Of a stretch of 64,000 bases of DNA, positions 1-46,288 are shown one piece after another. How positions within the stretch are numbered: position 1 is the stretch's first letter; each line of letters begins with the position of its first letter. The notes beneath the pieces were generated by a model, which was not told the origin of the DNA, made no database searches, and saw only the letters and a program-made list of their open reading frames with translations. Location of the stretch: assembly GCA_947184155.2 (NCBI GenBank), contig CAMXCT020006223.1:769501-833500 (forward strand). Direction: 5' to 3'. The DNA is from Cladocopium goreaui (lineage: Eukaryota > Sar > Dinophyceae > Suessiales > Symbiodiniaceae). The translations under genes were made by a program, and so were the position numbers.

Positions 1-2447
1 TATATGACTTTTAGTTATTCCCATTTCTTTTCTTCTTTCATTTTGAAAGTATGAGGTTTAATGCTATTTACTATTTTTGTAAAATTGAATTTTGCTTCTT
101 CAATATCATATTTCATATCTTTTTGCGATGTATCCACTAAATCGCCTTCTAATGTATAAGGTGCTGGAACAGAAACTTTTGATGGCGTGACGAAAAGTCT
201 TACACTACCATTAGCACAAAATCTTATGTCTCCGTTAGGGTCTTCGTTGTATAACTTGAAATGATTAACACCTGTATTTTCATTAAATATATAACTATTC
301 TTACCAGTTTCTTTGTGAAAATATGCCTTTTTGTCTTGATTGATGTATATATATATATCTTGAACAATTAACATCTTCATCTGCTTTTCTATATCTCATA
401 TATTCTACTAAACCGTCATCTGTTGTATTACTGCCTTGAAAAACCATATCAGCACCGGCATTTCTATGGATAAACAAGTATCCATAAATATATTGAGACG
501 ACAGCGCCCTACCTGTTGATACATCAATAATATTTTTAGTGCCATCTAATGTAAAGAAATTAACACCACCCCTTTTAAATACTACATTAGTAGGAGTGGC
601 ACTATCAATTACATCAAACTTACCACTTGCAGCAAGTAATGATATACCTGTATTTACTTCTACATTACCATTTCTAAAATACATAAAATCTATGGTGTTC
701 CTTCTAAAACTGTCATCAGCATTACCGATACTATCATATGTGTTTGATTTAGCACCCTTTGTTAGTTCCACTGCTTGTTGTGTTCCTTCAAACTTCATAT
801 ATTCAACATCACCTCTTGTAAAAACCAAATGAACATCAGTAGCATTTTTTGTATTGATGACATCAGTTTGCAATTCGGTATGACATACGACATCTACATT
901 AAAATACGCCTGTGTGTGTTTGATAATTGATACTTTAAGTGTTGAGGAAACGGACTACCACCAACATAAAACCGATGCAATCCACCAGCACCAAAAATAC
1001 AATAATCATAACCAGTATTGCCACTTCCTAAATTAATAGACCGGATATAACCTTTACCAGTCCCTAAAGCAATTGACCCTCCAAGGACTAATTCTATACC
1101 TGAAAGAAAATAAGAAGTTCCATTAACCGTTAAATCAAAACTTCCAAATTGAGCCCCTCCACCTATGACTAAATCGCCTTCTATTGTCTGTAATGTCTCA
1201 CCTGTATATTTTACTAAATTAGTATCATCAACGCCACCTCCACCTCCAATATCTGGACTTGTAGGCTTGTGAAATGTAATTAAATTGTTTTGTAATGTCA
1301 TAACTAAATTAGTTGTAGCATCTGGCACTGTGGGGCTTCCAACATAAAATTTAATTTCACCCGTGCTCTCGTTCATTACATAATTCATCACGGTAGAGGC
1401 GTTTTTACTTTCAACATAATCACATAAAATGTTATTAACACATTCTATGTTATTTGAAACGTATGAAGCACCATTGACAGTTAATACATTGCTTCCGTTT
1501 TTAGCACCATTAACACCAACAGTTCCTGCTACTTGTTGGTCGGTTTCTCCTGTCAGTTTTAAGCAGTTTGAGGTGTCGCCTGATAAATCTAAATTGGTAG
1601 GTTTATTAAATTCAACAATCCCGTTTTTAAAATGTCATTATTAAATTGGTTGTTGTATCGGGGACTATCGGACTGCCTACATAGAATTTCATTTCTCCGG
1701 TGCTTTCGTTCATAATATGGTTTATGATTGTTGATGTATTTTTGCTTTCAAAATTATCACATACAATAAAATTTTCACATTGAGTTTTAGTATTCAATAC
1801 TGTTAGATTTTCTTGAAGTTCAATCATACTGACATTGTTTCTTTTTATGAAAAAATCTAATGGTGCTACGGTGTCTATCTCTTGTGTTTTAAGATTGCCT
1901 CCACATTGTAGTAATTTACTTGCTACGATTTTACTTGCTGAAACATCATATTGTAAGTAAGTATCGCTGTTGCTTTGAAAAAGTATATCATTGGTATTGA
2001 GGGCATTGAATGTATTTGACTGAATATTAGAACCTTTGATATAACCGCTACTGTCCAAAGATGCTACTAAATGATTTCCCAGAATTTGACTATCTCCATT
2101 CACATAAAACGACTTATCAGAAGAACCAGCATTTAGGATTATTTTAGAAGTGCCATTAATATACCCGAGTCTCATTGTCCCTTCTATGTCTTGGGGATTG
2201 TTGATATTCAGTTTGTCATTGAGTAATGTATCTGTCTCTGATTTATTGTATTTATTATTCAGTAATGTATCTGTCTCTGATTTATTATACTAATTTGTTA
2301 AGTCAGCACCACCTCCACCACCACCTCCTCCATTGATGATTGCTGTATTGACATAACTTTCCGTTGCTAAATTTGAAGACCCTGTGTGTAGTATCTTGAC
2401 AGTTCGTCAGTTCCGATGTATCTGATTGAACCATTTAATGAAACCAT
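1..2447 (-). pseudogene. Virus/phage-type fibre protein with S74 chaperone start, decayed
   Basis: One reading direction from an ATG at 2447 to the window edge, broken by a frameshift near 2390, an in-frame TAG near 2290 and frameshifts near 1635, 885, 380 and 25. The N-terminal part has a glycine run and two copies of YNKSETDTLL (about 2210-2290), typical of trimeric phage and viral tail fibres. The middle holds repeated modules: MNESTGE.KFYVGSP occurs at about 1340-1385 and 1670-1715, followed by KPT..D and a KYTGET/KLTGET segment. The last piece (15-380) contains DTSQKDMKYDIEEA and IVNSIKPHTFK, resembling the start of the self-cleaving endosialidase chaperone (peptidase S74). A shift of frame near 25 would continue it as MGITKSHI past the window start. 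Such fibres recognise host surfaces. The many breaks say this copy is dead. Confidence is good for a fibre and moderate for S74. Confidence 0.7.
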
Positions 2448-2458
2448 TAATATAAATA

Positions 2459-3085
2459 TTATACATTATAATTTATATCATTTTTTTTAGTTTTTGAAGA
2501 AAACATATTCATACATACATTGTTGTATTTTTCTTGCTTTTGTTTTATGAATTGTTGTTGTAATACCAAATAGTGTTGAGCCATAGCATCAACTGGGTTG
2601 ATGGGTTGAACCGGAACTGGTTGCTTTTTCTTTATTAAAGGTTGGGTTGGTTGTTCTTCTTCTTCTTCATCGCTGTAATATATTTGGGGAGGTGGTTTAG
2701 GTTTAGGTTTTGCTGTTTGTTTTGCTTTGGGTTTTGCTTGTTTCTTGACCGGTGGTGGTTCTGGTGAGCATTTATGACTGTAGCGTAGATTTTTATATGT
2801 CATAGACCTTGAGCAGTCAGGACATTGGACTATATCACTTGCTCTTGGTTTTGCTTTGGGTAAAGGGCGTTGCCCTCCAGCACTTTCACTTTGTGAAAGT
2901 GGTTTGGGTTTAGGTTTGATTTCTTCTTCTTTGGGTTCTTTTGTAGGTTCTTCATTTTTTTCTTCAACAACTTCATTTGCTATTTCTGGAGTTTCAACAG
3001 GTTTGGGTTCTTCTTCAATTGTTTCCAGTGCTGGTGGTTCTTCTTTTGCTTCTTCATTTTGTAAATCAACTACTTTAATAGACAT
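2459..3085 (-). CDS. Low-complexity acidic/basic protein with one zinc-binding motif
   Basis: Intact 208-codon frame starting at ATG 3085. Residues 10-60 are Glu/Pro-rich and acidic, residues 57-85 and 110-135 are Lys/Pro-rich. Between them a single C-x2-C-x12-H-x-C motif (C88, C91, H104, C106) is likely to bind zinc. An acidic DEEEEEQ patch follows and the C-terminus is Gln/Lys-rich, possibly helical. No enzyme motif is visible. It sits upstream of the fibre gene on the same strand and is divergent from the polymerase/helicase gene, with about 130 bases between the starts. I do not recognise a named family. In this context an accessory or structural virus protein is the simplest reading. It is the only uninterrupted gene in the viral block. 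Confidence 0.6.
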   Translation of the reverse strand: MSIKVVDLQNEEAKEEPPALETIEEEPKPVETPEIANEVVEEKNEEPTKEPKEEEIKPKPKPLSQSESAGGQRPLPKAKPRASDIVQCPDCSRSMTYKNLRYSHKCSPEPPPVKKQAKPKAKQTAKPKPKPPPQIYYSDEEEEEQPTQPLIKKKQPVPVQPINPVDAMAQHYLVLQQQFIKQKQEKYNNVCMNMFSSKTKKNDINYNV

Positions 3086-3216
3086 ATATAAAAGTGGATA
3101 TATTTTTCTTAATATTTTCTTTTTATTTTTTTTTCAAGAAAACATTGAGAAATTAATAGTTAGGACTTGAAAAAAGTAATGTAAATTATGAAGAGAGAGA
3201 CAAGTTGAAGAAAAAA
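3086..3216. promoter_or_regulatory. Divergent AT-rich intergenic region of the viral block
   Basis: This 131-base gap separates two divergently oriented genes. It is dominated by A and T, with T-runs at about 3117-3134 and an A-run just before the ATG at 3217. A shared promoter is inferred from position alone; no defined motif can be named. Confidence 0.3.
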
Positions 3217-4886
3217 ATGATTGCTTGTATCAACATTGGTCTATTAGAAAAACAAACTAACACTGCTAAAAAGTCAATAGTGTTTTCAAAAATGGTTGAT
3301 GCCTTTTACTATCAAGAAACATACGGTGGTGATATAAATATTATTACTGAAACTACATATGACCGCTATTTCAATGATGGTTATGATGATGATGATGATG
3401 ATGATGATGATATGCTGATTGAAAAGGATGATAAGGGACATGTCATTGAGAATATTGAGAATGAAGTTGATAATGATATTCCTAAAAAGATAGATGAGTG
3501 TCAGTGTAAGCATTATGTGCTGAATATTTCTGATACAAAAACTGTAATGAACGGATATAGGTTTATCAAAGAACTAATTTTACAACATCATAACTTTGAT
3601 ATGAATGAGGCTTATGACACACTTATGAGGGATGGTGTCAAGGTGTATTCAGTAAAAACTGATGCCTTTGTGATTGATAAATGTAATTTAGGTCAGGCAA
3701 AGGAGGTGTTGAAATTTGGTAGTGAGATTGGAAACTGGAGGTGGTCTGATAAATTCAATTTTCCTACCAAGGCATTTTGTAAGCAACCCAGTGTTTTATG
3801 TGATATAACTGAATATCAAAATAAAACCGGTATGGTGAAGGATGAATGGAACACTGATGAAATCATAGATGAACATATTTTGAATAATAAACGGTTGATG
3901 ATTACAGGTGATGTGCCTGGAACAGGTAAGAGTTATATATGTCAGCACTTACAGAATAGAAACTATAAAGTCTTGTTCGTAGTCCCCACTAATAATTTGA
4001 AACAAGAGTGTGGAGCAGAAGCAATGACAATAAACAAGTTTTTTGGTATATCTTATGGTGATGAGAGGCTTGAGAAGTTTGATTATTCTGGTGTTGATGT
4101 CATAGTTTTTGATGAAATCATTTTTCATAATGTGGGTAAGTGGGCTTTGATATGGGACTTCTGTAAGAACAACCCTGACAAAATTGTAGTGGCAACTGGA
4201 GACACTAACCAGTTCAAAAACCCAGAGAGGGTAAGCAATGTAATGTCATTTGAGAAATATGCTGACCATTGTATTGATTTGATTTTTGAAAACAATATTA
4301 TGCTTTATGAATGTAAGAGGTTGAAGACTGAAGAAGACGGAAAGAAACTTTATGATATTAAGGCTATGATTGTGAACAATGCGCCTATACTTAATGTCAT
4401 TGAAAAACACTTTGGATGGAGTGAAGGGCAATGAGATATGTGAAAACAACATTGCTTATACAATTAAAACTTGTAGGGAAGTGAGCAATAAAATTAGAAA
4501 AATGAAAGGCATAGAACATGAATATGTGATAGGTGAGGAGGTCATCTGTAGAAAATATATTAAGACCAAAGGTAAGAAATTTAATGTAAATTTTAAATTG
4601 TTTAATTGTAAAAATTGTTGGTAATGATGTGGTTTTACAAAATGTGGCTACTAATGAGAAGCAAAATATAGAAATGAAATTATTGAGAAAGCATTTCATA
4701 TATGCTTACTGCTACACCTGTCATAGTAAGCAAGGCTGTAGTGTGGATGATGACATTGTGATATATGATTGGAGCAAATGGTATTGCAGTAAGAACTGGT
4801 ATTGGACAGCAATTACCAGAGCAAGAGATTTAAATAGAATTAAGTTTTATAAGTATCATGCTGATGAGAAGGATATGAGTAAATAG
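3217..4886 (+). pseudogene. Polymerase-palm-like / SF1 helicase, frameshifted
   Basis: Three frames join into one protein. Frame 1 (ATG 3217 to 4434) has an Asp run (about 3385-3410), then YRFIKELILQHHNF and VYSVKTDAFVI, which resemble the last palm motif of a B-family-like polymerase. A helicase follows: Walker A GDVPGTGKS (3907-3933), Walker B VIVFDEI (near 4100) and motif III ATGDTNQ (near 4192). The frame shifts near 4430 into KGNEICENN and again near 4610. The last piece carries the helicase C-terminal signatures YCYTCHSKQG and WTAITRARDL (4700-4840), as in superfamily 1 (Pif1/UvrD-like) enzymes. The N-terminus begins in mid-fold, so an upstream polymerase part may have been lost. Function would be viral DNA replication. 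Helicase identity is strong; the polymerase part is tentative. Confidence 0.75.
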
Positions 4887-4926
4887 AGATGTAGAAGATG
4901 GGGGTTATGTTGATGTAGATTTTTTG

Positions 4927-5112
4927 ATGAACCTGATGAATACCCAGTGTGAAAATTGTAATGAACCATTAGTGATAGATTTTGAAGATGGCAAGGTTTC
5001 ATCAAATATTAGTTGCCAAAGGGTTAATAATGATATTGCGCACTTCAAGGATAATTGTATAGGCTTGTGTGTTCAATGTAATTGTGCTTTTTCAAATAAA
5101 ATATCATTGTAA
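4927..5112 (+). pseudogene. HNH-like Cys-rich fragment
   Basis: Short frame of about 61 residues with CENC near its start and then SCQRVNNDIAHFKDNC followed by LCVQCNCAFSNK. The order R-x-N-N...H-x-x-D-N-C...C-x-x-C-N matches the core of HNH/endonuclease VII-like folds. Just upstream, another frame reads DVDFFDEPDEYPV, which looks like the acidic tail of the helicase, so this may be the C-terminal domain of the helicase gene cut off by a further frameshift. It ends shortly before the integrase start. Confidence is moderate for the fold and low for independent gene status. Confidence 0.45.
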
Positions 5113-5116
5113 ATAT

Positions 5117-5983
5117 ATGAGTAATAAGCAGACGATTATTAGTGATATTTATTTTGATAGAAGTGGTTATGGGAGCAAGGCTACAACTTTAAAAGATGCC
5201 AGAGAAAAAGATAAAACTATTGCTATGAAAGATGTTGAAGATTTTTTTAGAATGAATGTTGAGATTAAGAGAAAGCAAAGGGGTCAGAACAGTTTTGTAG
5301 CCCCCCACAACAACCACACTTTTCAACTTGATTTGTTTTTCATTTCAAAAAATGATATAGAAGCAACACAAAAGCTTAGAGCTGGGTTGGTAATGATTGA
5401 TGTATTAAGTAAATATGCTGTAGTAGTCCCTATTAAAAGCAAAAGCCCAGCCGATGTCAGCGCTGGAACAATGGAAGGGCTGGAGAAGATGAAGGCAAAA
5501 CCAAAAATCATATACACTGATGATGAAGGTAGTATAAGTGGTGCTGACTTCAAGCAACTAGTTGAAGATGAAGGGATTGAACTTTATAGAACTAGAGGTC
5601 ATCCAGCCTTCGCTGAAAGATTTATTAGGACATTTAAAGATAAACTCTTCAAAAGGGTTGAGAATGATGAGAAGAAAGGAAAAAATATCATTCAATGGAT
5701 AGATTACATAACCGAGATTTTACTAACATACAACAACAAAGACGTCCATAGTGCTACTGGACTAACTCCAAATGAAGCAAGGAAAGAAAGGAATGAGTTT
5801 AGAGCAAAACTTAATGTTTCAGTAAAAGCAAAGAAGGAAAGACTATACCCTTCTTTAGAAGTAGGAGACCGAGTAAAGATAATGAGAAAGAAAGCAATTA
5901 GGACCCAGAGGCAGATCACTGGCGGACATGCCCTGGAGGTCAGGCATTATGCGGCGGACACAGCCAACTATGCAGTGACCTGA
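5117..5983 (+). pseudogene. DDE (retroviral/Polinton-type) integrase, 3' truncated
   Basis: ATG at 5117 (MSNKQTI) is preferred over an upstream non-ATG extension. The rve catalytic core is clear: first Asp in FQLDLFF (residue about 72), second in IYTDDEG (about 135), Glu in PAFAERFIRTFKD (about 167). It is followed by WIDYITEILLTYNN and ATGLTPNEA, and by the start of the small C-terminal barrel, VGDRVKIMRKKAI. From about 5900 the base composition turns GC-rich and the residues (RTQRQITGG onward) no longer fit the family. The open frame runs to a TGA at 5981-5983 in foreign sequence. This enzyme would insert the element into host DNA. All three catalytic residues are present, but the missing C-terminus makes activity unlikely. 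Confidence 0.85.
5895..5915. other. Junction of viral block and host DNA
   Basis: Composition and codon use change abruptly inside the integrase frame: A-rich codons up to AAAGCAATTAGG, then GC-rich sequence (CAGAGGCAGATCACTGGCGG). The element therefore ends by truncation here rather than at a recognisable terminal inverted repeat. The exact base cannot be fixed without the intact relative. Confidence 0.55.
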
Positions 5984-6226
5984 GCAGTAGATCAAGAAAT
6001 GAGGAAACTGAGGAAACTGAAAGACTCAAATGACTTAAAGATACTTAAAGACTGTGACATTTGAATGACGCGTTCACCGCTTACGAAGTGACGCATCGGC
6101 TGAGGCGCATGACCTGGAGTTCTTTGCCAGACAGTCAGAGGCTGATGTCGCTGAGGTTTGGTCAGCCAACAGGCAGCGCACTTCTGCAGAGTACGGTAGT
6201 ATTGCCCCATATTGCCTCCAAGTACA

Positions 6227-6341
6227 TGTATATATATAATATTATATTATATAATATAATATAATATTATATTATATTATATGATATCATATCATATTAT
6301 ATTGTATTGTATTGTATTATATTATATTATATTATATTATA
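6227..6341. repeat. AT-rich simple repeat
   Basis: Units of TATAT, ATAAT, TATTA and TATTG alternate without interruption over about 115 bases. Confidence 0.85.
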
Positions 6342-9300
6342 CTTGGAAACAAGTGTTCACTCTGGACAGAACAGGGGTCTTGAATGGTCTTGATATCTTC
6401 CTTTTTGGAGGATTTCAAACATCACAATAACTGGTGGTTTGTTCTGGTGAGACACTCATTGCTAGCCATCCCCAAAAGGTCATGATGGAGGAGAGATCAG
6501 CAATATTCTCACAGGATGGTGACCTTTTTTCTGGGTGAAGTTCCCAAATTTTCACAGTTTAATATGGTTTCTACCCCTTTTTTGGGGGGTTGAATCCACC
6601 ATTGAACTGGGTTGAAGCCCTGCAGCCAATGAGGCTTGGCTTGGCGTTCAAGATGCCAACAGGGGTCGATAGCTCAGAAGATGAGATTGATGGTCGAAGG
6701 GCGGAATGAAACTACAGATTCACTAGGGTACTGAGAAGAAAACCAGATGCAATGCGATCATGAACAAGGGATCGGGAGATGAACATGTTCAAAAGATGTT
6801 TGGGCTAGTTGGACAAAAGTGTTGCATGACATTCCTCATTTGATACTGCCGGAGGTGTACGCGTTAGGAGCCTCAGATTGCAGCGGAAGTGTGTGCAAGT
6901 TCATGGCATAAAGTCATTGACCCACCTGGAGAATTGATGAGAGTTGGCTGTTTTGGGCACACTACAACAAACTCGCAAATAACACCAAATCAAACCATCA
7001 GGAAGACATGTTACTGATTTCGTCGGACAGGAAGCATGCGAAAAGAGCCCCTCTTTGGATGAGATCATGGGAGATCCAAAACTGGGTGGTTCAATCGGGA
7101 GACCTCATCCAAGGGAACCAAGCGGTGAAACCCTCAGCCATCATTTGACCAGGCCGTACCTTCCTTTGGACATGGATGCAATGCCAGATCCAGCATTGAT
7201 TGCATCGTGGCTTGGCATGAAAACACCATAAAACACCCAAGCCATTCCTTGATTGGCATCCTTTGGAAGGGTTTTCATACGGTTGTGTGAGTGAAATCTC
7301 TTCCAGAATGGTGATTACACCTTCTTTTGGGGGCAACGATAGATCTTCAGGCTGTTCGCGGTGAGCGCCGTCGGTGCCCCAGTGCTGGTGATTTGAACCA
7401 TTTGTTTTAGCTTAGTGACGCAGCGGGTGACATGAAAATTACCTTGGTTTGCTTCCGCCTAGTTTTGGTATTTTGCCAAAAGTCAACCAATCAACTCTTC
7501 AAGGCTTACACTACTTGAATTTCCTTGAATATATATATACATACAGTATATATATAGTATAATAATAATATTAATAGTATAACATACATATATATATATG
7601 TAGTATAATAATGTTATTAATAGTAATAATCATAGTGATTACAACTATAATAACAATACTGATGATAATAATAGTTATATAATATTTAATAACAATATAT
7701 ACATATATCATATACATGTATTATGGCTAAGTCTCACCATTTCAACCGGTCCAAGTGAATTATTTTGCTCACGCCTCCGAGGCGCCTGGAAACATACCAA
7801 GGTTTTGATCCTCAGTGGGGACCGGAGGCACAAAAAAAAGTGTATATACAGCATCCATGTGGATTCTGAAAATAAAGGAACAAAGCTAGCACTAAAGCAG
7901 ATTTCTTTTTTTCTGGGTGTCTATGACATTCTATGACAATGGATAAGAGATTACATACTTATAAAGGACACAAGACTGGCGAAGGCTTGAGTGACGGTAT
8001 CCTATCAATAGAAATCCTGAGAATCCCTCAGGACAAGCTGTGCATCATGCAGAAGTGCTTATGGTGCAGAAGTTTCTCCCAAATACACAAGGGGAGCTGT
8101 CCAAGCTAAGATGGTTTCCCATGCTGGTGCAAACCAAATTAAATGTGATCATTTGGCTCCCACGGTTGAACTTCCGGAAGCAAGGTATATTGAAACAAAC
8201 TCGGGCGCGGCACATGAAAGAATTGTGTCCTCCTACGTCCTACCCCTGTTTTTTTTGGGAGGGCTATTTGTTTAGGATATACATGGATATACAGTATACA
8301 GAACATTAGAAAACGATGTCACATCTCATGGCATGTCAAGATACAAATCAACATTTTGGATATTCACAAATCGTCATAAATGAATCTCCACATAATCCAT
8401 CATTCAAACGCACTAAAATCTTCGGGCATGAACTTCGGGCTTTGAGGCCTGGCAGCTTCCTGTGAGATGAGCGCTCACTGGGCAAAAAGATACAACATGG
8501 GCGTCGGATCATTTGTGTCTGAAAATATCTGGGAACAAACGAGGAAAGCACCACAAGACACCCGTGAAATCCATTGAAATCCTTGAACGAAGAGAATGTG
8601 AGCACTGCCTCCATTGTGTCAAAAGGCCATACTTAATGAGATACACAGTTACGTGGGCGCATCTTATTTTTTGGACGACCGCACATGAGGACACTGGGAC
8701 ATGGTTTCTGGGTAGTGATGAATCCATGATTCATGATGATATATGTTTATTGAAATTGTTGATATTTGTGGATATCGATTGTAAGATATTATTGGCATTG
8801 ATTCTTGTTTGCGGAGACATGATGCTGATGCTTATGGACACTTGTTTTATTTGCTCTGAAATCGTTTCTTTTTTGATGTTTATTGAGATCAAACATAAAT
8901 CAATCCCTCTTGATAGAATGACGCAGACGTAAGTTTATGGATATGTTTCATTTCCTTCTTTTGTGAAAAGGACTTGGTGACTTTTTAGTTTGAACAGAAG
9001 AATTTCTTGATGATGTGACCAGACGTTGCGCTCATGAAGACCAGAATATGGCGCTTGATTGATCATAATGTGGTAAACCCAATGCCATCAATATCAAATT
9101 TTGAATGGATTCACATTCATACATTTATACAATACAATACCACACATTTCTGGTAAAAATGGGGTTTATGGCAGGTTTACCACATTCATCAGGGATCTCA
9201 ACCAAAGCTAGTGCGCTTAGTCGGTGATGCCGTTGCGCTTGGTCTTGCTCTCAGGGCCGATATGGGATGATCTCAGGGATGATTGATGTTCGGCGGTTGA

Positions 9301-10229
9301 AGAATGTCATTCCCCGAAAAACAAAGAACTAATGAGTCCATTCATGTCCCAATTTTGACCCCCAGCTGTGCATGAAACTCCAACAGGACCAAATCCACCC
9401 CCTTTGTCTCCATTCTCAATGTGTAGCCCTCCATAAGAACATATAAAAAAGACACTGAACCGGACCATTTCAACATGGCAGGGCAATGTTAAAAGTTACT
9501 TAGAAGTACCCTGCATGCCTGCATGTTGAAGTTGTTTCTTGGTGTCTTCACCCCCAACGCCGTGGGATTGCTAGTGCGACGTTGTGAGGTGGTCTTCGAT
9601 TTCGCGAGGGACTCGGGCAAAGCCATCCGCGACCACCAAAAACCCAAAGAATCGAAAAGAGCTCACGGCTCCAAACGGCTGCAACCCTTCAAGAACGCCT
9701 TTGGTTCAACGTGGTTTGACATGGTTTAGTGTGGTTTAACACTGTTTAACAAGGCTTAATCTGGTCTGTATAAATGCTATTCTGAATACATATGATCTTT
9801 GACTTTGAAGGGGAAATCGATGGTTTTGCTGCCCAAGTTGGCACAGGGTCCTTTGATCCCAGCAAAGGCTGCCTGATGGGATTCGACCACGATGAAGTTC
9901 AACCATGTTAAGACAAGATCCAGGTTTACCATGTGGGAAAAAGGATTGGAAAACGATTCCAGCCACATGGACATTAGGGGTCGTCAAAACTCAAAATCCA
10001 CTGACTCGACCCATCCCCATTTTGTAAGGACCAGACTTTGAGTGTGGTTCATGTCTACAATTCCATAGTGCGACACTCGGAAGTCATGATGGCTGCAAAA
10101 TTTCTTTGACCTTGCAGCAATGGGGCGTCATCGGGTTCTTGGGTGAATTGAACGGAGAAAAATGGCAGTCTTTATCTGTACCAGTTCATACGAGTTCTGG
10201 CAGTGGCAATCTTGATGTTTCCAGCTCGT

Positions 10230-10392
10230 TCTGTTTGCTGCCCACACACTCAGCTTCTTCAGCCACTATCCCAGCTATCTGAGGCTGGTGGCAGAGAGGT
10301 GTGGCAACTACCTGCACCACATGCCTGTAGCGAGGCAGGGCAGTGTGGACCCTCAGGTGACTGTGGCAACGCTGGAACTGGCTGGAAGTCGC
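10230..10392 (+). CDS. Possible exon, unrecognised
   Basis: A GC-rich stretch is open in one + frame reading FFSHYPSYLRLVAERCGNY followed by LHHMPVARQ and ending near TLELAG. Composition is like that of the confirmed exons, but no family is recognised and the other strand is also open. It could be an upstream exon of the HAD-like gene that follows. Confidence 0.2.
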
Positions 10393-11127
10393 CAAGGATC
10401 AGGTTCGGAAGGTTGCAATTCCAGCAGGAATCTGAAGGAACTTGGAGGGCTTCAAAAACTGGGGAACCCAAAGCCACATGAAACCCACCGTGTTTGTTGT
10501 TAGGAGAAAACAAACAGATACAGGTCCCTTCCCAGCATTTTTGGACAGCTCGACTGGGCCACTCCCGACCTCCAACATATCAACATATTCATTCGTTTCC
10601 ACAACTGCCAAGGTTGGCTCGTATTGTCGGCCTAGATCGACACCCTCAGCTGCAGCAACAAGGCCTTGATGTGTGACGGGCCCTTCATGCCAAACTGACC
10701 TTCGACATGCCAAACGTTGTTCTGTCGACATGCCTCTGTTTGGACGCAGAATGGAACATAGTAAATCGGACAATAGAAACGCACCGTCAACATGCCAACC
10801 GAAGACACGCCACCATCCCCAACTTTCACTTTACAATTTGCTGTCATTTTCAATCATCGACGATTATTCCAATTGGCTTGAATTGCTGGTCGGAATTATT
10901 GGTAAATGTTCCCTGTTGGGAATTTCGAATATTGTTGAGCATCACCCAAACAGACGCTTGTCAGTGGCGATTCCCCGTTTCTGAGCTATGGAACTGTGGA
11001 TCATGGGATCATGAACTGGATCATGAAGTGAGATGATCGCTATGATTCGCTATGGATTACTAAATATTACTAAAACAAACTGAAGTTCCTTGGACCACAT
11101 CCTAAAAACTGTCGGAGCCGGAGGTGG

Positions 11128-11757
11128 CTTTGCCATGGCTGCCTTTGGTGGTGCAGAGCGTGTGCAACGCCTTGCAGGGATGTTGGAGCGGGGGATGGGA
11201 CAGGGGTCACCCACAGCTTCTGCGAAGATTCCCGAACCAATCTGTAATTGAATTGAAACTGATTTGAAACTGTTGAAACTGTCAGAGGCACTGGCGCGCA
11301 AGGTGAAGTTTTACGAGTTGAAGTCGCCATAGACTACCGGAGCTCCAGCCAACCTGGCCAGGAGCAGCTTCGACAGGCTGGTGTTGAGTGCATCATTTGC
11401 TCCAGAGGCGCCCAGCCGTTTCTCCTCATTTGTTCTGGAAGCTAGGCCATATACCTAATGGTTGGGTGATGTTCAATGGGGACATTTAATGACCCATGTT
11501 TTTTTGGAAGGTATTTTTCAGACTTGCCGGCTCCCTTTATGGAAATTCATGGAAATTCTTAGCCACTGCACCTCAAAACTCAAAACTGGGTAGAGTAATG
11601 TGGTGTTTCTGTGAGGCAAAAAAACCTGGGGTCCCAGCTCAACATCGCACCTGGTGGCAGGTTTGGTGGGTCCCATCCAAAAGCTCTTGGATCAGCTGGG
11701 ACTGCTGCGCTACTTCTCAGAGGTCTATGGCAACATCGGGGACGCTTATGGCCAGAC
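11128..11757 (+). CDS. HAD-like hydrolase, two 5' exons
   Basis: Exon at about 11,128-11,212 reads AFGGAERVQRLAGMLERGMG, and exon 11,661-11,757 (after AG) reads GPIQKLLDQLGLLRYFSEVY followed by GNIGDAYGQT. Together they resemble the middle of HAD-superfamily proteins, where a helix-rich F-G-G-x-x-R segment is followed by a K-L-L-x-x-L-G-L-x-x-Y-F...V-Y-G-N stretch. The N-terminal DxDxT nucleophile exon was not found. The gene does not continue before gene A starts at 12,049; exons that fit the next part of the same protein lie at 46,711-47,394. Identity is by motif memory only. Confidence 0.45.
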
Positions 11758-12033
11758 GAGTTGGATCCTCAGGGGATCTGGCCCCAGTTGAACCTGGATT
11801 CCCATGGGTAAAACAATAATAAACCATCCCCCAAATCACCCTGAATAGGTGGTGTAAACCCTTCCCCAATGGCTAGTTTATTATTGTTTAAACCACATTA
11901 CCAGGTTTCCAGCACCTTTGCATTTTTCACTCCAAATCCTGGATTGTCATGGATTTTCCCCATTTTCCCCATGGATAGTCGTTGAATATGGTGGCCCCGC
12001 AGCATCTTGCAGCGCGTAGCCAGTGCAGCACAG

Positions 12034-12048
12034 CTTGCGCGGTGACAC
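12034..12048 (+). promoter_or_regulatory. Candidate trans-splice acceptor/short leader of gene A
   Basis: An AG (12,032-12,033) lies 15 bases before the ATG of gene A. Dinoflagellate mRNAs receive a spliced leader at such sites. The assignment is inference from position. Confidence 0.3.
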
Positions 12049-14278
12049 ATGGCCTCTTCCAGTAAGCGAGCGCGCACTGGCAATGAGTCCTACTACCGAA
12101 ACTTGGGATTTTCCAAGCTGTTGGGAGCAGAAGGATCTATGATATCTGGATTAAAATATATTTAAATACATGATACATTAATTTTCTCGACCCCAACTTT
12201 GATCTGTAAAGTTTAGATTTAACATGATTTCCCCCCCAAACCAGTGATTTTTGGACAATTTGGTTATAGTCATAGTATCGATCAAAATTAGCAACCACCA
12301 AAACGATCAAAATGGATGCTTTGATATGATATAAAAGGTCTAATTGTGCGGATCCACTCGTACGCCTTTGACCCGATATGGTACTCAGATTCCTACAGAT
12401 CCGTGTGCGCTCCAGTTTCTCTCCATTTCTTTGCCCCCTTTTTATCCATTCTTTAGGGATATCCCGGATATCCCAATGCCTTTTCGCCGGGTGAAGCCAC
12501 GCTGGTCAGGACACGTGGATGGCGTGAAATGTGACCGGGCCTTGTTGGAAGCTGCTGAGCGAGTGGCCAGCAATGGCCCCATTGGTTTGGTTGATGCCAT
12601 GGATCTCTGGGACAAAGCAAAGGATGGTGTGCGGCTCAGATCGTTTTTGGAGCTGTTTATAGTCCCCATTATATTGGATAGATTTGGAGAGTATGACATT
12701 AGTATAACCCCTATATGATATCATCAAGATAATCAAGATGGGTTTGGAACACTGCTCATTTAGTGCTGGGGAGGTATTTAAAAAAAACTGGTGGTAGGCT
12801 GCAGTCCTTTTCTGAGTTGGAATGTCCCAAGTTGAAGTTGATGCACTGTACACCGTACTGCCAGTGAGGCAACAGGATCACGGAAGTGGAGAGACATACC
12901 TTGGGCTGCCGGGTGCAGATTTTGGTTATTTCTATGCGCATCCTTGATTGATGTAAACCTGTGATAATCTGACAACCTGTGTACTGTTGGCAACCGTTCA
13001 CGGGGGTATACACAGCCGCTACGTGAGTGTATCGCTGACGTCCTTCGGAAGCCCATTTTTGGGGGGTATGAAACCGATCCTGTCCAGGTTTACTTTGTGT
13101 TGAGTTGATTTGGCCCATGATACTTTCAGTACTTGCAAGATACCAACCAACTGCCTAGGAATGTTGGCTTTGGTGGGCCAGCTTACGTTTAATTCTCAAT
13201 TGTAGTACGCTGCTTAGTTCCAAACTTGGACTTAATTTGGATGGTTTGACTTTAATAGGTTTTGATTCCAAACATATCCAAGAATGGCGCTGCAAACAGG
13301 CCAGCCATTTTCAGATGGCCAATGCCCTAGCCATTTCACCCAGCATTTGAGGCTGGGTGGTTGAGCACCTGGAGTTCACGGAAAAGGGGAGGGCATTTAT
13401 GGAGCAGCAGCTGCTAGATGGCTACTTGGTTCAAGTCCTGAGGAAAACTAAGACTTCCAACTTAAAGGAAGTTTACTGAAGATCCAAGAACCCACCGATT
13501 TTACTACACGAAGAATGTGGGTTTTGAGTCATTTGGGTCATGTTCAATCTCAATCATTTTCCCAGTTTTGCAAAGACTTGGCCACCGAAGGATCTTACTA
13601 CACGAGCATTGGACGCACCAAGTACAGCCGCGCATTGCTGCAGCGGGCTGAAACATTCTCTGCTGAGCAAAGCATCTCACAACAACAGGCGATGGCCGAA
13701 AGATACGGAAAGGATTGGGGGTTTGATCTGGTGCCGTGGTGGTGGGATTATTACTATATGTAATCGTTGTTCTCCCCAGCAGGCAGTGGATCTTTGGCAA
13801 TTGGCCCTGGATGGCGAACGTTTGGGCGACTGCGAGCGGCGCACGCTCCGGTGCCTAAGCTGCACAATTGGACACTGCTTGTTCGTTCCAAAGGACATTT
13901 TTTGGAGAGTTTCTACAAAACACGAGTGTGTTTTTCGATGGAAACGGATGGTTTTTGAAACTCCATGTCACAAAACAATGAATTTTGAATTTCACTGAAG
14001 GATGTTGAAGGACATGTTTACTTTCTGGTTTCCGTATGAGGAATATTGTCACCAAAGGCAACCCCTGTATGCACCACTTCGCAACAGTTGACAGGGCTAA
14101 CATGTTCTTGACTGTTGCTTATGAAGATATGTGGACATGCATGTTTCTACTGCTGCTTGCTGTACCCCTGTGCCATGGGTGTGCTTGCGCAGGTACGTCC
14201 TACAGAATTTGAATGCAACCACTGGTGCAAGGAAATTTCTGCTGGCTAAGCATTTTGGCAGAACAATTATCACGAAAG
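12049..14278 (+). CDS. Gene A: two-domain DGVKYDR-family protein
   Basis: Seven exons join in frame: 12049-12106, 12510-12626, 12869-12904, 13352-13420, 13591-13688, 13783-13850, 14193-14278. The start MASSSKRARTGNESYYRN matches the start of gene B. Domain 1 reads HVDGVKCDRALLEAAE, then DAMDLWDKAKDG, ITEVERHTLGWVVEHLEFTE and AFMEQQL. Domain 2 reads YYTSIGRTKYSRALLQRAE, QAVDLWQLALDG, DCERRTLRYVLQNLN and ARKFLLAKHF. The consensus (DGVKYDR.LLE.A, LW..A.DG, E..TL.YV) resembles a small domain of unknown function that I recall from dinoflagellates and some marine bacteria. Donors are GA, GT, GC, GC, GC, GT. Exon lengths 58, 98 and 68 are identical to the matching exons of gene B. The 3' end after 14,278 (GT donor) was not found, so the gene may be incomplete. 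Confidence 0.75.
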
Positions 14279-14417
14279 GTAGCGTCAGCTACCTGAGTTC
14301 TCCGTGCTTCAGCACAATCATAGGGGGTATTGGGGGGCCAGCCCGTGCAAATCGTGGAATTCTCGACGATATCAATTATAAGGGGAGCCCCCCCCGAGAG
14401 ATGGACTGTTAGGAACT

Positions 14418-14570
14418 ATGCGACAAAAGGCCTTTAACAGAAATGATCTGGAGAGAGAGAAGAAACATTCATCCTCAGGTTATAGCTCATCTTCAATCAT
14501 AACTTGCTGCTACGCTTTGGCTCTTCACTTGTACTTAAGCACACACTTGCTTCTCTGGATAAAGCTTTTG
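14418..14570 (+). repeat. Dispersed 150-bp repeat, copy 1
   Basis: Starts ATGCGACAAAAGGCCTTTAA and runs through TTGCTGCTACGCTTTGGCTC to a TTCTCT..AAAG end. It matches 22,920-23,070 in the same orientation with scattered changes. Both copies are followed within about 130 bases by A/C-rich simple sequence (AAGAAC here), as in retroposon tails. The second copy sits just after the transposase-like gene, so it may instead be the end of that element. Confidence 0.7.
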
Positions 14571-14679
14571 CAGCAGCATTTGACAACATGTTTCTTGCTA
14601 GTGTATACTCTTGTCCACTGCATTTGCAAAAGCCCTTCAAACAAAATTATCAAGACACATCAGGTAACCATATTAGATA

Positions 14680-14848
14680 ACCACAAGAACAAGAACAACA
14701 GCAAGAAAAAAGAACAAGAAGAGAACACAAACATAAAAAGACCCACGACAAGAAGAAAAAGGAGAACAAGAAGAAAAGGGACAAGAAGAACAAGATGAAC
14801 AACAACAGCAGGAGCGCAGCAGGGAGAGGCGACGATGACGACGACGAT
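14680..14848 (+). repeat. AAGAAC/GACGA simple sequence
   Basis: Degenerate AAGAACAAGAAC and AAGAAGAA tracts, then a GACGATGACG tract at about 14,830-14,850. Confidence 0.7.
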
Positions 14849-14854
14849 GACCTA

Positions 14855-16262
14855 GGCTCTCTGAACCATCTCGCTAATTTGCATCTAGGTGGCTCCCTGA
14901 GGCATCTGGTCTTTTCAATGTCATCTGAACCTACGTGTGGCTCTCTAGGCCATCTTGCCTGTTGCAATGTCATCTGTCTCTAGGTGGCTCTCTGGGCCAT
15001 CTTCTCTGTTACAAGGTCATTTGTCTCTAGGTGGCTCCCTGGGCCATCTTGTCTGTTACAATATCATCTGTCTCTAGGTGGCTCTCTGGGTCATCTTGTC
15101 TGCTACAATGTCATCTGTCTCTAGGTGGCTCTCTGGGCCATCTTGTCTGTTACAATGTCATCTGTCTCTAGGTGGCTCTCTGGGCCATCTTGCCTGTTAC
15201 AATGTCATCTGTCTCTAGGTGGCTCTCTGGTCCATCTTGCCTGTTACAATGTCATCTGTCTCTGGGTGGCTCTCTGGGCCATCTTGTCTGTTACAAGGTC
15301 ATTTGTCTCTAGGTGGCTCCCTGGGCCATCTTGTCTGTTACAATATCATCTGTCTCTAGGTGGCTCTCTGGGTCATCTTGTCTGCTACAATGTCATCTGT
15401 CTCTAGGTGGCTCTCTGGGCCATCTTGTCTGTTACAATGTCATCTGTCTCTGGGTGGCTCTCTGGGCCATCTTGCCTGTTACAATGTCATCTGTCTCTAG
15501 GTGGCTCTCTGGGCCATCTTGCCTGTTACAATGTCATCTGTCTCTAGGTGGCTCTCTGGGCCATCTTGCCTGTTACAATGTCATCTGGCTCTGGGTGGCT
15601 CTCTGGGCCATCTTGTCTGTTATAATGTCATCTGTCTCCAGGTGGCTCTCTGGGCCATCTTGCCTGCTACACACTCATCTGTCTCTAGGTGGCTCTCTGG
15701 GCCATAGTGTCTACAGCCTCATCCTTGTCTGCTACACACTCATCTGTACCTAGGTGGCTCTCTGGGCCATCTTGTCTGCTAAAAATGTCATCTGTCTCTA
15801 GGTGGCTCCTTGGGCCATCTTGCCTGTTGCAATGTCATCTGTCTCTAGGTGGCTCTCTGGGCCATCTTGCCTGTTACAATGTCATCTGTCTCTGGGTCGC
15901 TCTCTGGGCCATCTTGCCTGTTACAATGTCATCTGTCTCTAGGTGGCTCTCTGGGCCATCTTGCCTGTTACAATGTCATTTGGCTCTAGGTGGCTCTCTG
16001 GTCCATCTTGCCTGTTACAATGTCATCTGTCTCTGGGTGGCTCTCTGGGCCATCTTGTCTGTTATAATGTCATCTGTCTCCAGGTGGCTCTCTGGGCCAT
16101 CTTGCCTGCTACACACTCATCTGTCTCTAGGTGGCTCTCTGGGCCATAGTGTCTACAGCCTCATCCTTGTCTGCTACACACTCATCTGTACCTAGGTGGC
16201 TCTCTGGGCCATCTTGTCTGCTAAAAATGTCATTTGTCTCTAGGTGGCTCTCTGGGCCATCA
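14855..16262 (+). repeat. 47-bp minisatellite with higher-order repeats
   Basis: About 28-30 head-to-tail units of 47 bases, each with CTAGGTGGCTCTCTGGGCCA, a TCTTG(C/T)CTGTTACAATG part and TCATCTGTCT. Two higher-order duplications are visible. A six-unit block repeats at 282 bases (variant ACAAGGTCATTTG at 15,011 and 15,293). A larger block repeats at 442 bases (variant TCTACAGCCTCATCC at 15,711 and 16,153). Open frames across it are by-products of a unit whose stops are rare in one frame. Confidence 0.95.
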
Positions 16263-42730: not shown

Positions 42731-43428
42731 GAAATAGGCAGGATCCAGCGCCAGTGTGATCTCAGTGTCCCTCAGATCCAACATCAGCACGACCGCAGGC
42801 TTTCCGAAAGCCACGGAAGCTGAGAGCAAAGCAGTGAGAGAACACTGCTGTTGCACAGGGGGGATATGAAGCATCAGGTGAGAGTTTTTGATTTTGATGA
42901 AAAAAATACTTCTGGAGCTTGGAAGCTGTTCTTGCTGCAACCAAGACACATGGCAGAACTCAGGACATGTCACAAAATCTGTTGCTGATGTCCTTGCTTT
43001 GCGCAATGTGTACATTACTTAGAGCCTCAAATTGGGTGCTTCGCAACGGGATCGTTGTGCATAGCTGCAGGGGGGTGCAGTCCAACGATGGCCAAAAAGT
43101 GGCTGTGCGACCATGATTCACCATAAGCTGGGGTCAATCATGACCTTGGCCCTCAAAATTAGGTTTGACAGATGATGTATTACGAGTGAAACCAGCATTG
43201 TCATTATCCGCACATAATAAATCCTCAACTGGGTAGTAAGCTGCCTTAGGTATTTATCACTGTCCCATGGTTGTGGTATGCCGGCGTCACACTGAGGCTA
43301 TGACAGCCAGGTGAGACGATCCAACCTCGGAGATGATGTGAAGTATCTGGTGCGCTGGGGGCAATGGCGGGAGCAATGGCTGGCAATCCCAATAATGAAC
43401 CATACCCTGTACATACGGTTGATATATA

Positions 43429-44294
43429 TATATACACACATACATACATACATACATACATACATACATACATACATACATACATACATACATACATACA
43501 TACATACATACATACATACATACATAATCATACATAATCATACATAATCATACATAATCATACATAATCATACATAATCATACATAATCATACATAATCA
43601 TACATAATCATACATAGTCATACATAATCATACATAATCATACATAATCATACATAATCATACATAATCATACATAATCATACATAATCATACATAATCA
43701 TACATAATCATACATAATCATACATAATCATACATAATCATACATAATCATACATAATCATACATAATCATACATAAACATACATAATCATACATAATCA
43801 TACATAATCATACATAATCATACATAATCATACATAATCATACATAATCATACATAATCATACATAGTCATACATAATCATACATAATCATACATAATCA
43901 TACATAATCATACATAATCATACATAATCATACATAATCATACATAATCATACATAATCATACATACATACATACATAATCATACATAATCATACATACA
44001 TACATACATAATCATACATACATACATACATACATAATCATACATAATCATACATAATCATACATAATCATACATAATCATACATAATCATACATAATCA
44101 TACATAATCATACATAATCATACATAATCATACATAATCATACATAATCATACATAATCATACATAATCATACATAATCATACATAATCATACATACATA
44201 CATACATACATACATACATACATACATACATACATACATACATACATACATACATACATACATACATACATACATACATACATACATACATACA

Positions 44295-44328
<34 letters not shown>

Positions 44329-45935
44329 CATAATCATACATAGTCATACATAATCTTACATGATCATACATAATCATACATGATCATACATAACCATACA
44401 TAATCATAGATAATCATACATAAGCATACATAATCACACACAATCATACACAATCATACACAATCGTCCATACTCAACCATGCTCATACATACTCATACT
44501 CATTCATACTCATACATACTCATGCATAATCATACATATTCATACATACTCATACATACTCATACATACTCATACATACTCATACATACTCATACATACT
44601 CATACATACTCATACATACTCATACATACTCATACATACTCATACATACTCATACATACTCATACATACTCATACATACTCATACATACTCATACATGCT
44701 CATACATACTCATACATACTCATACATACTCATACATACTCATACATACTCATACATACTCATACATACTCATACATACTCATACATACTCATACATACT
44801 CGTACATACTCGTACATATTCATACATACTCATACATACTCATACATACTCATACAAACTCATACATACTCATACATACTCATACATACTCATACATACT
44901 CATACATACTCATACATACTCATACATACTCATACATACTCATACATACTCATACATACTCATACATACTCATACATACTCATACATACTCATACATACT
45001 CATACATACTCATACATACATACATACATATCAGAAATAAGAGACAGAACCAGACATAATCATACATAAGCATCATAATCATACATATTTAATCATAATC
45101 AAAATAATAATACATAATCATACATAATCATACATAATCAACATAATAATTACGAATCATACAGAAATCAACAGAATCATACAGAATCCTACACAATTCA
45201 TACACAATCATACACAATCATAACAATCATAATAATCATCCATAATCCTACATAATCATGCCTAATCATGCACAATCTGCACATCAGGCACAATCAGACA
45301 CCACAATCATACATAATCATACATAAGCATACAGAAATATACATAATCATACATAACAGACGTAATCATACGTAATCATACCTGAATCATACATAATCAG
45401 ACATCAATATACATAATCATACATAACATAGATTAATGCATGATAATCATAGATAATCATAGATAATCATAGATAATTCATAGACAATCATAGACAACTA
45501 GATAATCATAGAGAATCTACAACAATCATACATAAGCATACATAAGCATACATAAGCATACATAAACATACATAAACATACATAAACATACATAAACATA
45601 CATAAACATACATACATACATAAACATACATACATACATAAACATACATAAACATACATACATACATACATACATACATACATACATACATACATACATA
45701 AACATACATACATACATACATACATACATAAACATACATACATACATACATACATACATACATACATACATACATACATACATACATACATACATACATA
45801 CATACATACATACATACATACATAAACATACATACATTACATTACATTACATTACATTACATTACATTACATTACATTACATTACATTACATTACATACA
45901 TACATACATACATACATGTATACATGTATACATGT
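43429..45935 (+). repeat. 2.5-kb compound satellite
   Basis: Blocks in order: CATA tetramers (43,437-43,525); roughly 75-80 copies of TACATAATCA (43,525-44,190, with CATA islands near 43,965-44,035); CATA (44,190-44,320); a decayed stretch; about 50 copies of TACATACTCA (44,500-45,010); decayed TACATAATCA (45,040-45,530); AAACATACAT and CATA (45,540-45,835); about twelve ATTAC pentamers (45,835-45,895); CATA/CATG end. The two 10-mers differ by one base. Confidence 0.95.
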
Positions 45936-46288
45936 ATACATATGTACATGTTACAGATTCACATATAATATATATACACATTAAATCTACTGTACGTAGA
46001 TTAGAAATATGTATGCCCAAGAACAAAAACCAATCGTGGTCAGTAACAAAGATACGTCCAACAAGGGCTTGATGATGGGGTTGCAGGGACTATGGCACTC
46101 AATAACTCTATCATTTTTCAATATGAATGGGGGATGAACATCCACTTACCAACAATTTTGATCTTCTCCAGGGTGCGGTGTTTTCATCCACAGTTGTCAT
46201 CAATTATCCACGGCCCAATCGAGATGTGAAGCCCCACTTCTGGCATTGACATGCATTGACCACTGATAGGGTTTTCAACTGTCATATA
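45936..46288. other. Spacer, nothing recognised
   Basis: Short AT-rich start, then unremarkable sequence without exon-like stretches. Confidence 0.4.

Follow-up and report, generated by a model that had tools for sequence, protein, structure and literature searches.

The left end of a 64,000-nucleotide stretch of Cladocopium goreaui DNA (C5826:769501-833500, hereafter the window) very probably holds a deleted and decayed member of a family of endogenous Polinton-like viruses (PLVs) that is present in high copy number in a dinoflagellate-type genome. The gene content of this relic, a left arm resembling a terminal inverted repeat (TIR), an internal junction, a right breakpoint and the fuller relatives of the relic in the same assembly (1.17 Gb and 6,202 contigs searched) are all directly observed. 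The relic occupies C5826:765269-775400, about 10,132 bp (~10.1 kb), of which ~4.2 kb lie to the left of the window; in window coordinates it starts at about -4231 and ends at 5900, and its in-window part (1-5900) is delimited by a drop in GC content and by DNA alignment with sibling copies. The GC content is 0.31-0.36 in window positions 1-6000 vs. 0.39-0.51 in positions 6001-16000, and the low-GC block runs on leftward. The initial annotation had proposed an endogenous PLV relic in a dinoflagellate genome, an interpretation that is supported by related copies carrying the major capsid protein (MCP) and the packaging ATPase. The AT-rich block, the fibre and zinc-motif protein on the minus strand, and the superfamily 1 (SF1) helicase and DDE integrase on the plus strand were all recovered; of the proposed boundaries (1-5905), the right one moves to 5900, and the element begins 4.2 kb further to the left.

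The left part of the relic lies in L009 (C5826:759501-769500; window coordinate = L009 coordinate minus 10000). The TIR-like arm (L009:5769-5986) was identified by alignment with sibling copies, its outer edge at 5769 being based on a single match (L021); an edge at L009 ~6440, suggested by GC content, was dropped when the alignment placed it at 5769. The arm is followed by a C5 DNA methyltransferase on the minus strand (L009:6667-7206, Pfam E = 1.9e-6; 180 amino acids vs. a 220-amino-acid frame in the fuller copy C5435, described below), a coiled-coil-type frame, a Zn-ribbon-type protein (L009:7746-8204, minus strand), a packaging-ATPase-like gene on the plus strand (L009:8741-9493, PHROG terminase large subunit E = 8.9e-12) and the C-terminal end of the fibre (L009:9755-10000, minus strand), which continues into the window. 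The ATPase has no Pfam family and no notable match among PDB sequences. All 9 of the 9 ATPase sequences aligned (L009:8741-9493; L049, L051-L057) have SASQGGKG as their P-loop, in which the Lys is not followed by the customary Ser/Thr. Capsid and ATPase genes had been predicted to lie to the left of the window; extension in that direction yielded the ATPase and the TIR-like arm but no MCP, which was found neither in the window nor in the 40 kb leftward (L009-L012; best tblastn E = 0.064, with 120 listed of 354 MCP relatives as queries).

Within the window, pieces of the fibre gene span 18-2289 on the minus strand: a near-C-terminal piece in which an S74-like chaperone domain begins (18-395), a stop-to-stop piece in another frame (304-954), and two further stop-to-stop pieces (897-1634 and 1630-2289), the last with short repeats of the YNKSETDTLLN type and 86% DNA identity to C5511 (L062). 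The chaperone domain that had been read here stays below the Pfam cut-off in the window (S74, E = 0.029), whereas the phage-type fibre is borne out by the unbroken 882-amino-acid frame of C5435, whose C-terminus matches PHROG phage long-tail-fibre families (E = 1.7e-10). At the DNA level, window 1-1214 shares 90% identity with the part of C5435 that holds this frame, and 1215-1837 has no in-place alignment with C5435. Next comes an open frame for a K/P-rich protein with one Zn-binding-type motif, CPDC...H...C (2462-3133, minus strand; homologue at L046:8769-9416).

The plus-strand genes begin with the 3' part of a large replication protein (3188-4434), an SF1 helicase core with Walker A motif (Pfam Viral_helicase1, E = 1.1e-5) that is nearest to Pif1 by Foldseek. 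No notable match was found for this piece among PDB sequences; it has 222 relatives, the best with 97% full-length identity, so the signal is beyond chance. The helicase continues in a second frame (4376-4624) and a third (4590-4886), the latter with a UvrD_C_2/Dda-like end (Pfam E = 0.0061, under the cut-off; PHROG matches to exonuclease V, E = 2.6e-4, and to a Dda-like helicase, E = 3.9e-4). The subsequent Cys-rich part (4879-5112), listed as an HNH-like piece in the initial annotation, belongs to the C-terminus of the replication protein: in C5435 it is read in one frame with the helicase (L045:7557-9842), and the DNA of window 4884-5263 matches that copy at 89% identity. A nuclease was not confirmed in it (best PHROG E = 0.096).

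The last viral gene is an RVE (DDE) integrase (5117-5899, plus strand; Pfam rve E = 3.3e-5, at 24.5 bits below the cut-off of 32.6), with 874 relatives, weak matches to retroviral integrases among PDB sequences (best E = 0.013) and no relative in the phage collection. The initial annotation had counted one intact gene, which does not hold for the integrase: it is viral only up to residue 261 of ~306, and the last ~45 codons are replaced by other DNA. Nine of the 11 aligned relatives are 303-322 amino acids long, and the remaining two (292 and 445) have aberrant tails. Sibling alignments place the breakpoint between viral and other DNA at 5900-5901: with the query extended to 7000, 31 of the loci fetched align across 5300, and the alignment of every one of these 31 ends at 5898-5900.

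The rve domain is common to retroelements, and rve matches in frames of 1,000-2,800 amino acids, LTR-type (long terminal repeat) by inference, are abundant in this genome, so that the block might be read as a remnant of an LTR retrotransposon or of another non-viral transposon with an RVE integrase. We consider such an origin extremely improbable. A Pfam scan of 18 stop-to-stop frames detected neither a reverse transcriptase nor a Gag family, even with E values of up to 1 admitted, and the ATPase, the fibre and the MCP-bearing relatives likewise argue against it. In a tree of 20 integrases from this genome (11 PLV-type, 7 LTR-type and 2 insertion sequence (IS), the LTR-type and IS labels being inferred from frame length and contig), the 11 PLV integrases fell on one side of a branch with support of 100/98 (98% of 200 bootstraps), that is, apart from the LTR-type integrases with which a retrotransposon remnant would group; the comparison is between PLV-type rows on the one hand and LTR-type and IS rows on the other, with no virophage or Maverick integrases among them. 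An earlier tree of 22 rows, which included a wrong-frame row (L003) and a very long branch (L071), gave the same split with weaker support (79/80).

The fuller relative on C5435 (L058, L046, L045 and L047) spans ~23.1 kb from one TIR end to the other; its two arms are identical over 220 bases, and CTTAG, read by eye, is a candidate target duplication. From the left, it carries a GC-rich 640-amino-acid frame (+), a methyltransferase (-), a coiled coil (-), a Zn ribbon (-), the ATPase (+), the fibre (-) and the Zn-motif protein (-); then a 193-amino-acid frame (-), a 294-amino-acid frame (+), a homing endonuclease (+; PHROG E = 1e-9, GIY-YIG PHROG E = 4.1e-4), the MCP (+) and a 408-amino-acid frame (+); and, in its right part, the replication protein in two frames (+), the integrase (+) and three plus-strand frames of unknown or Cys-rich kind. 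We take the 294-amino-acid frame to be lipase-like, and L046:9420-9998 on the minus strand, without a Pfam or PHROG match, presumably resembles the C-terminal part of a minor capsid (penton) protein. The C5435 copy also has broken frames, in the ATPase and the replication protein. Its MCP (L045:2254-3819) probably adopts a double-jelly-roll fold, as predicted for the 97% identical homologue P0241. The 640-amino-acid open frame (L046:213-2132), located after the left TIR and before the methyltransferase, is GC-rich in an otherwise AT-rich copy; it may have been inserted into the element or acquired as cargo.

Relatives of these genes are numerous in the genome, all counts being lower bounds: we identified at least 135 integrase matches (scored of 948 candidates), at least 155 ATPase matches (281 candidates, 150 listed) and at least 83 MCP matches (scored of 299 candidates). 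By a count made by eye, which includes some partial matches, 65 of these 83 are uninterrupted by stops where they align. Within 25 kb of the MCP, the listed rows show an ATPase in 71 of 83 cases, an integrase in 65 of 83 and both in 57 of 83, compared to 0.7% (ATPase) and 0.6% (integrase) expected under random placement; the partners lie on one strand in 73 of 74 MCP-ATPase pairs and 59 of 67 MCP-integrase pairs. The absence of capsid and packaging genes from every related copy, which would have spoken against a PLV, is therefore not what is observed: both MCP and ATPase are present. Three listed MCP homologues with 68-70% identity are labelled Skav, which we take to stand for Symbiodinium kawagutii. 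The combination of MCP, ATPase, RVE integrase and TIRs is also that of virophages and of Mavericks/Polintons in the narrow sense, and mavirus-like MCPs in two Symbiodinium genomes are reported in Bellas 2023 (PMC10120064); an assignment to either, rather than to the dinoflagellate-group PLVs, is nevertheless quite improbable in our judgement.

Comparison with C5435 shows where the capsid gene of the relic would have been. Window 1838-3187 aligns to L046:8072-9451 and window 3188-4848 to L045:7891-9516, such that L046:9451 is joined to L045:7891 at 3187|3188, and the 8,439 bp (~8.4 kb) that lie between these points in C5435, with the MCP, the homing-endonuclease gene and others, are missing. 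The relic lacks an MCP because the block that holds it in C5435 is missing at this junction. In a genome search with window 2600-3600, 40 matches were scored (the best 40 of 211 candidates, the relic included); none of the 39 others crosses the junction, 33 ending at or before query base 588 and 6 starting at 589, so the junction appears, from these alignments, to be private to the relic.

Several results weigh against the interpretation of the relic as a deleted copy of a PLV family. For the relic itself, no right TIR and no target duplication were seen, only the left arm being found. A search of the window for the dinoflagellate spliced-leader motif gave 0 matches, so that the assignment to a dinoflagellate-type host draws on the relatives, the copy numbers and the size of the genome. 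Confidence in the predicted capsid structure is modest (mean pLDDT 58), and the MCP has no match in Pfam, PHROGs or PDB sequences. No relative was found in IMG/VR, at the sensitivity used, with either alignment (MCP or integrase) or with the single integrase and helicase-piece sequences. The polymerase palm proposed in the initial annotation was not confirmed, nor was a polymerase elsewhere in the family, by Pfam, PDB sequences, PHROGs, a genome search with PF03175 or hhalign against one sequence. The broken frames may in part be assembly errors, in line with the warning of Bellas 2023 (PMC10120064) that assembly artefacts frequently account for stop codons in elements of this kind. Finally, the closest relatives of the two halves differ: the ATPase is 95% identical in amino acids to the C535 group, whose integrase is only 62% alike, whereas the integrase of the relic is 90-92% identical to those of C5936, C958 and C419. 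Because of this difference, 3187|3188 could join two PLV copies instead of marking a simple deletion, which would make the relic a chimera produced by nested insertion or recombination, and PLV pieces do meet in this genome, given that a TIR arm abuts or lies near a truncated helicase or integrase at L014 and L021. We regard such a fusion as unlikely, although less so than the two origins dismissed above. Gene order and strands on both sides of the junction agree with C5435; the missing 8,439 bp account for the short distance between ATPase and integrase (6,376 in the relic, hence 14,815 with the missing block, vs. 14,800 in C5435 when measured from the first piece of its ATPase); similarity to C5511 is 84-86% to the left of the junction (ATPase, Zn-motif region) as well as to the right (integrase); and recombination between PLVs before integration would yield an identical mosaic.

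Under the preferred interpretation of a deleted and decayed PLV copy, we infer the order of events and the mechanism of integration as follows. A PLV of ~20-23 kb would have integrated via its RVE integrase acting on the TIRs; a loss of ~8.4 kb from its interior would then have removed the MCP and the 5' portion of the replication protein, among others; truncation on the right would have taken away the integrase tail together with the right TIR; and the fibre, helicase and methyltransferase frames would have broken. With no capsid gene and no whole integrase, the relic should, as far as its sequence tells, be incapable of particle formation or autonomous movement. It illustrates the decay of an endogenous PLV (loss of the capsid block, of one end and of frames) beside fuller sister copies, and a PLV copy without a capsid gene must accordingly be assessed together with its relatives.

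The kind of element is already known, and the relic is a new, degraded copy of a published group, to which it contributes an assembled case of dinoflagellate type for which TIRs, copy numbers and the order of the genes are documented. According to Bellas 2023 (PMC10120064), most dinoflagellate MCPs form the 'Dino' cluster, with up to thousands of copies; these PLVs are similar in their dinoflagellate-type genomes, high copy number (2,535 MCPs reported for Polarella glacialis) and MCP-bearing insertions, and the legend of Fig. 3 describes insertions in other protists with MCP, minor capsid protein (mCP), helicase, RVE integrase, methyltransferase (MTase), HNH, TIRs and a GC shift. The relic differs in being cut to 10.1 kb without capsid genes, and it is likened to the 'Dino' PLVs by description, not by MCP sequence. 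OmPLV of Oxyrrhis marina, as described in PMC12721341, shares low GC content, broken genes, TIRs, an A32-like ATPase and an SF1 helicase in a large replication protein; it has, however, a tyrosine recombinase, a helicase before the polymerase (a helicase-polymerase fusion) and an MCP outside the 'Dino' clade, whereas the relic family has an RVE integrase and a helicase towards the C-terminal end. Fig. 1 of the same paper includes a dinoflagellate polinton of S. kawagutii. Tlr1 of Tetrahymena, in the account given there, likewise has the SF1 helicase on the C-terminal side with a further domain behind it, but this end is GIY-YIG in Tlr1 and Cys-rich in the relic family, in which the N-terminal polymerase is not confirmed. 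The Maverick/Polinton elements of Breviolum minutum, as described in PMC11071213, are a dinoflagellate repeat class, typically of 15-40 kb and often with capsid genes, that is enriched for 5-hydroxymethyluracil (5-hmU) and at dinoTAD borders; this likeness, too, is one of description.

We tentatively suggest, as a possibility that falls well short of our main conclusion, that the genome carries a recently active PLV lineage that combines a highly diverged polymerase, the SF1 helicase and the Cys-rich end in one chain, and whose copies are being tamed one by one through private internal deletions like that of the relic. Recent activity is suggested by the identical TIR arms in one copy and by the 65 of 83 MCP matches that align without a stop.

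At the loci where PLV pieces meet, the TIR arms lie at L014:3546-3720 and L021:2286-2470, a layout as if PLV copies had inserted beside or into each other; we do not claim C1318 and C5936 (L021 and L014, respectively) as deletion derivatives that kept their TIRs, given that the orientation suggests abutting insertions. The PF03175 (polymerase B 2) search, with 91 of 232 candidates scored, gave matches at six places on six contigs, among them G000:C218:128046-129404 but not the C5435 copy; comparison of the polymerase-like stretches with one of them (L073) by hhalign gave nothing. The six contigs are missing from the listed integrase, ATPase and MCP rows, and these matches possibly represent a second polinton-type lineage. 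Rfam matches and tRNAs both numbered 0. Elsewhere in the window, a 47-base unit forms an array at 14884-16147 (17.5 + 8.7 copies in two adjacent rows), and a 2.5-kb array of simple repeats of the ATAC/CATACATAAT type occupies 43424-45949, with an extreme GC skew (-0.92 in 44001-45000). The 22 best rve matches all lie on G000:C1 (7,377,000 bases), and 15 share one score and a frame of 383 amino acids; this contig looks like a bacterial chromosome within the assembly.

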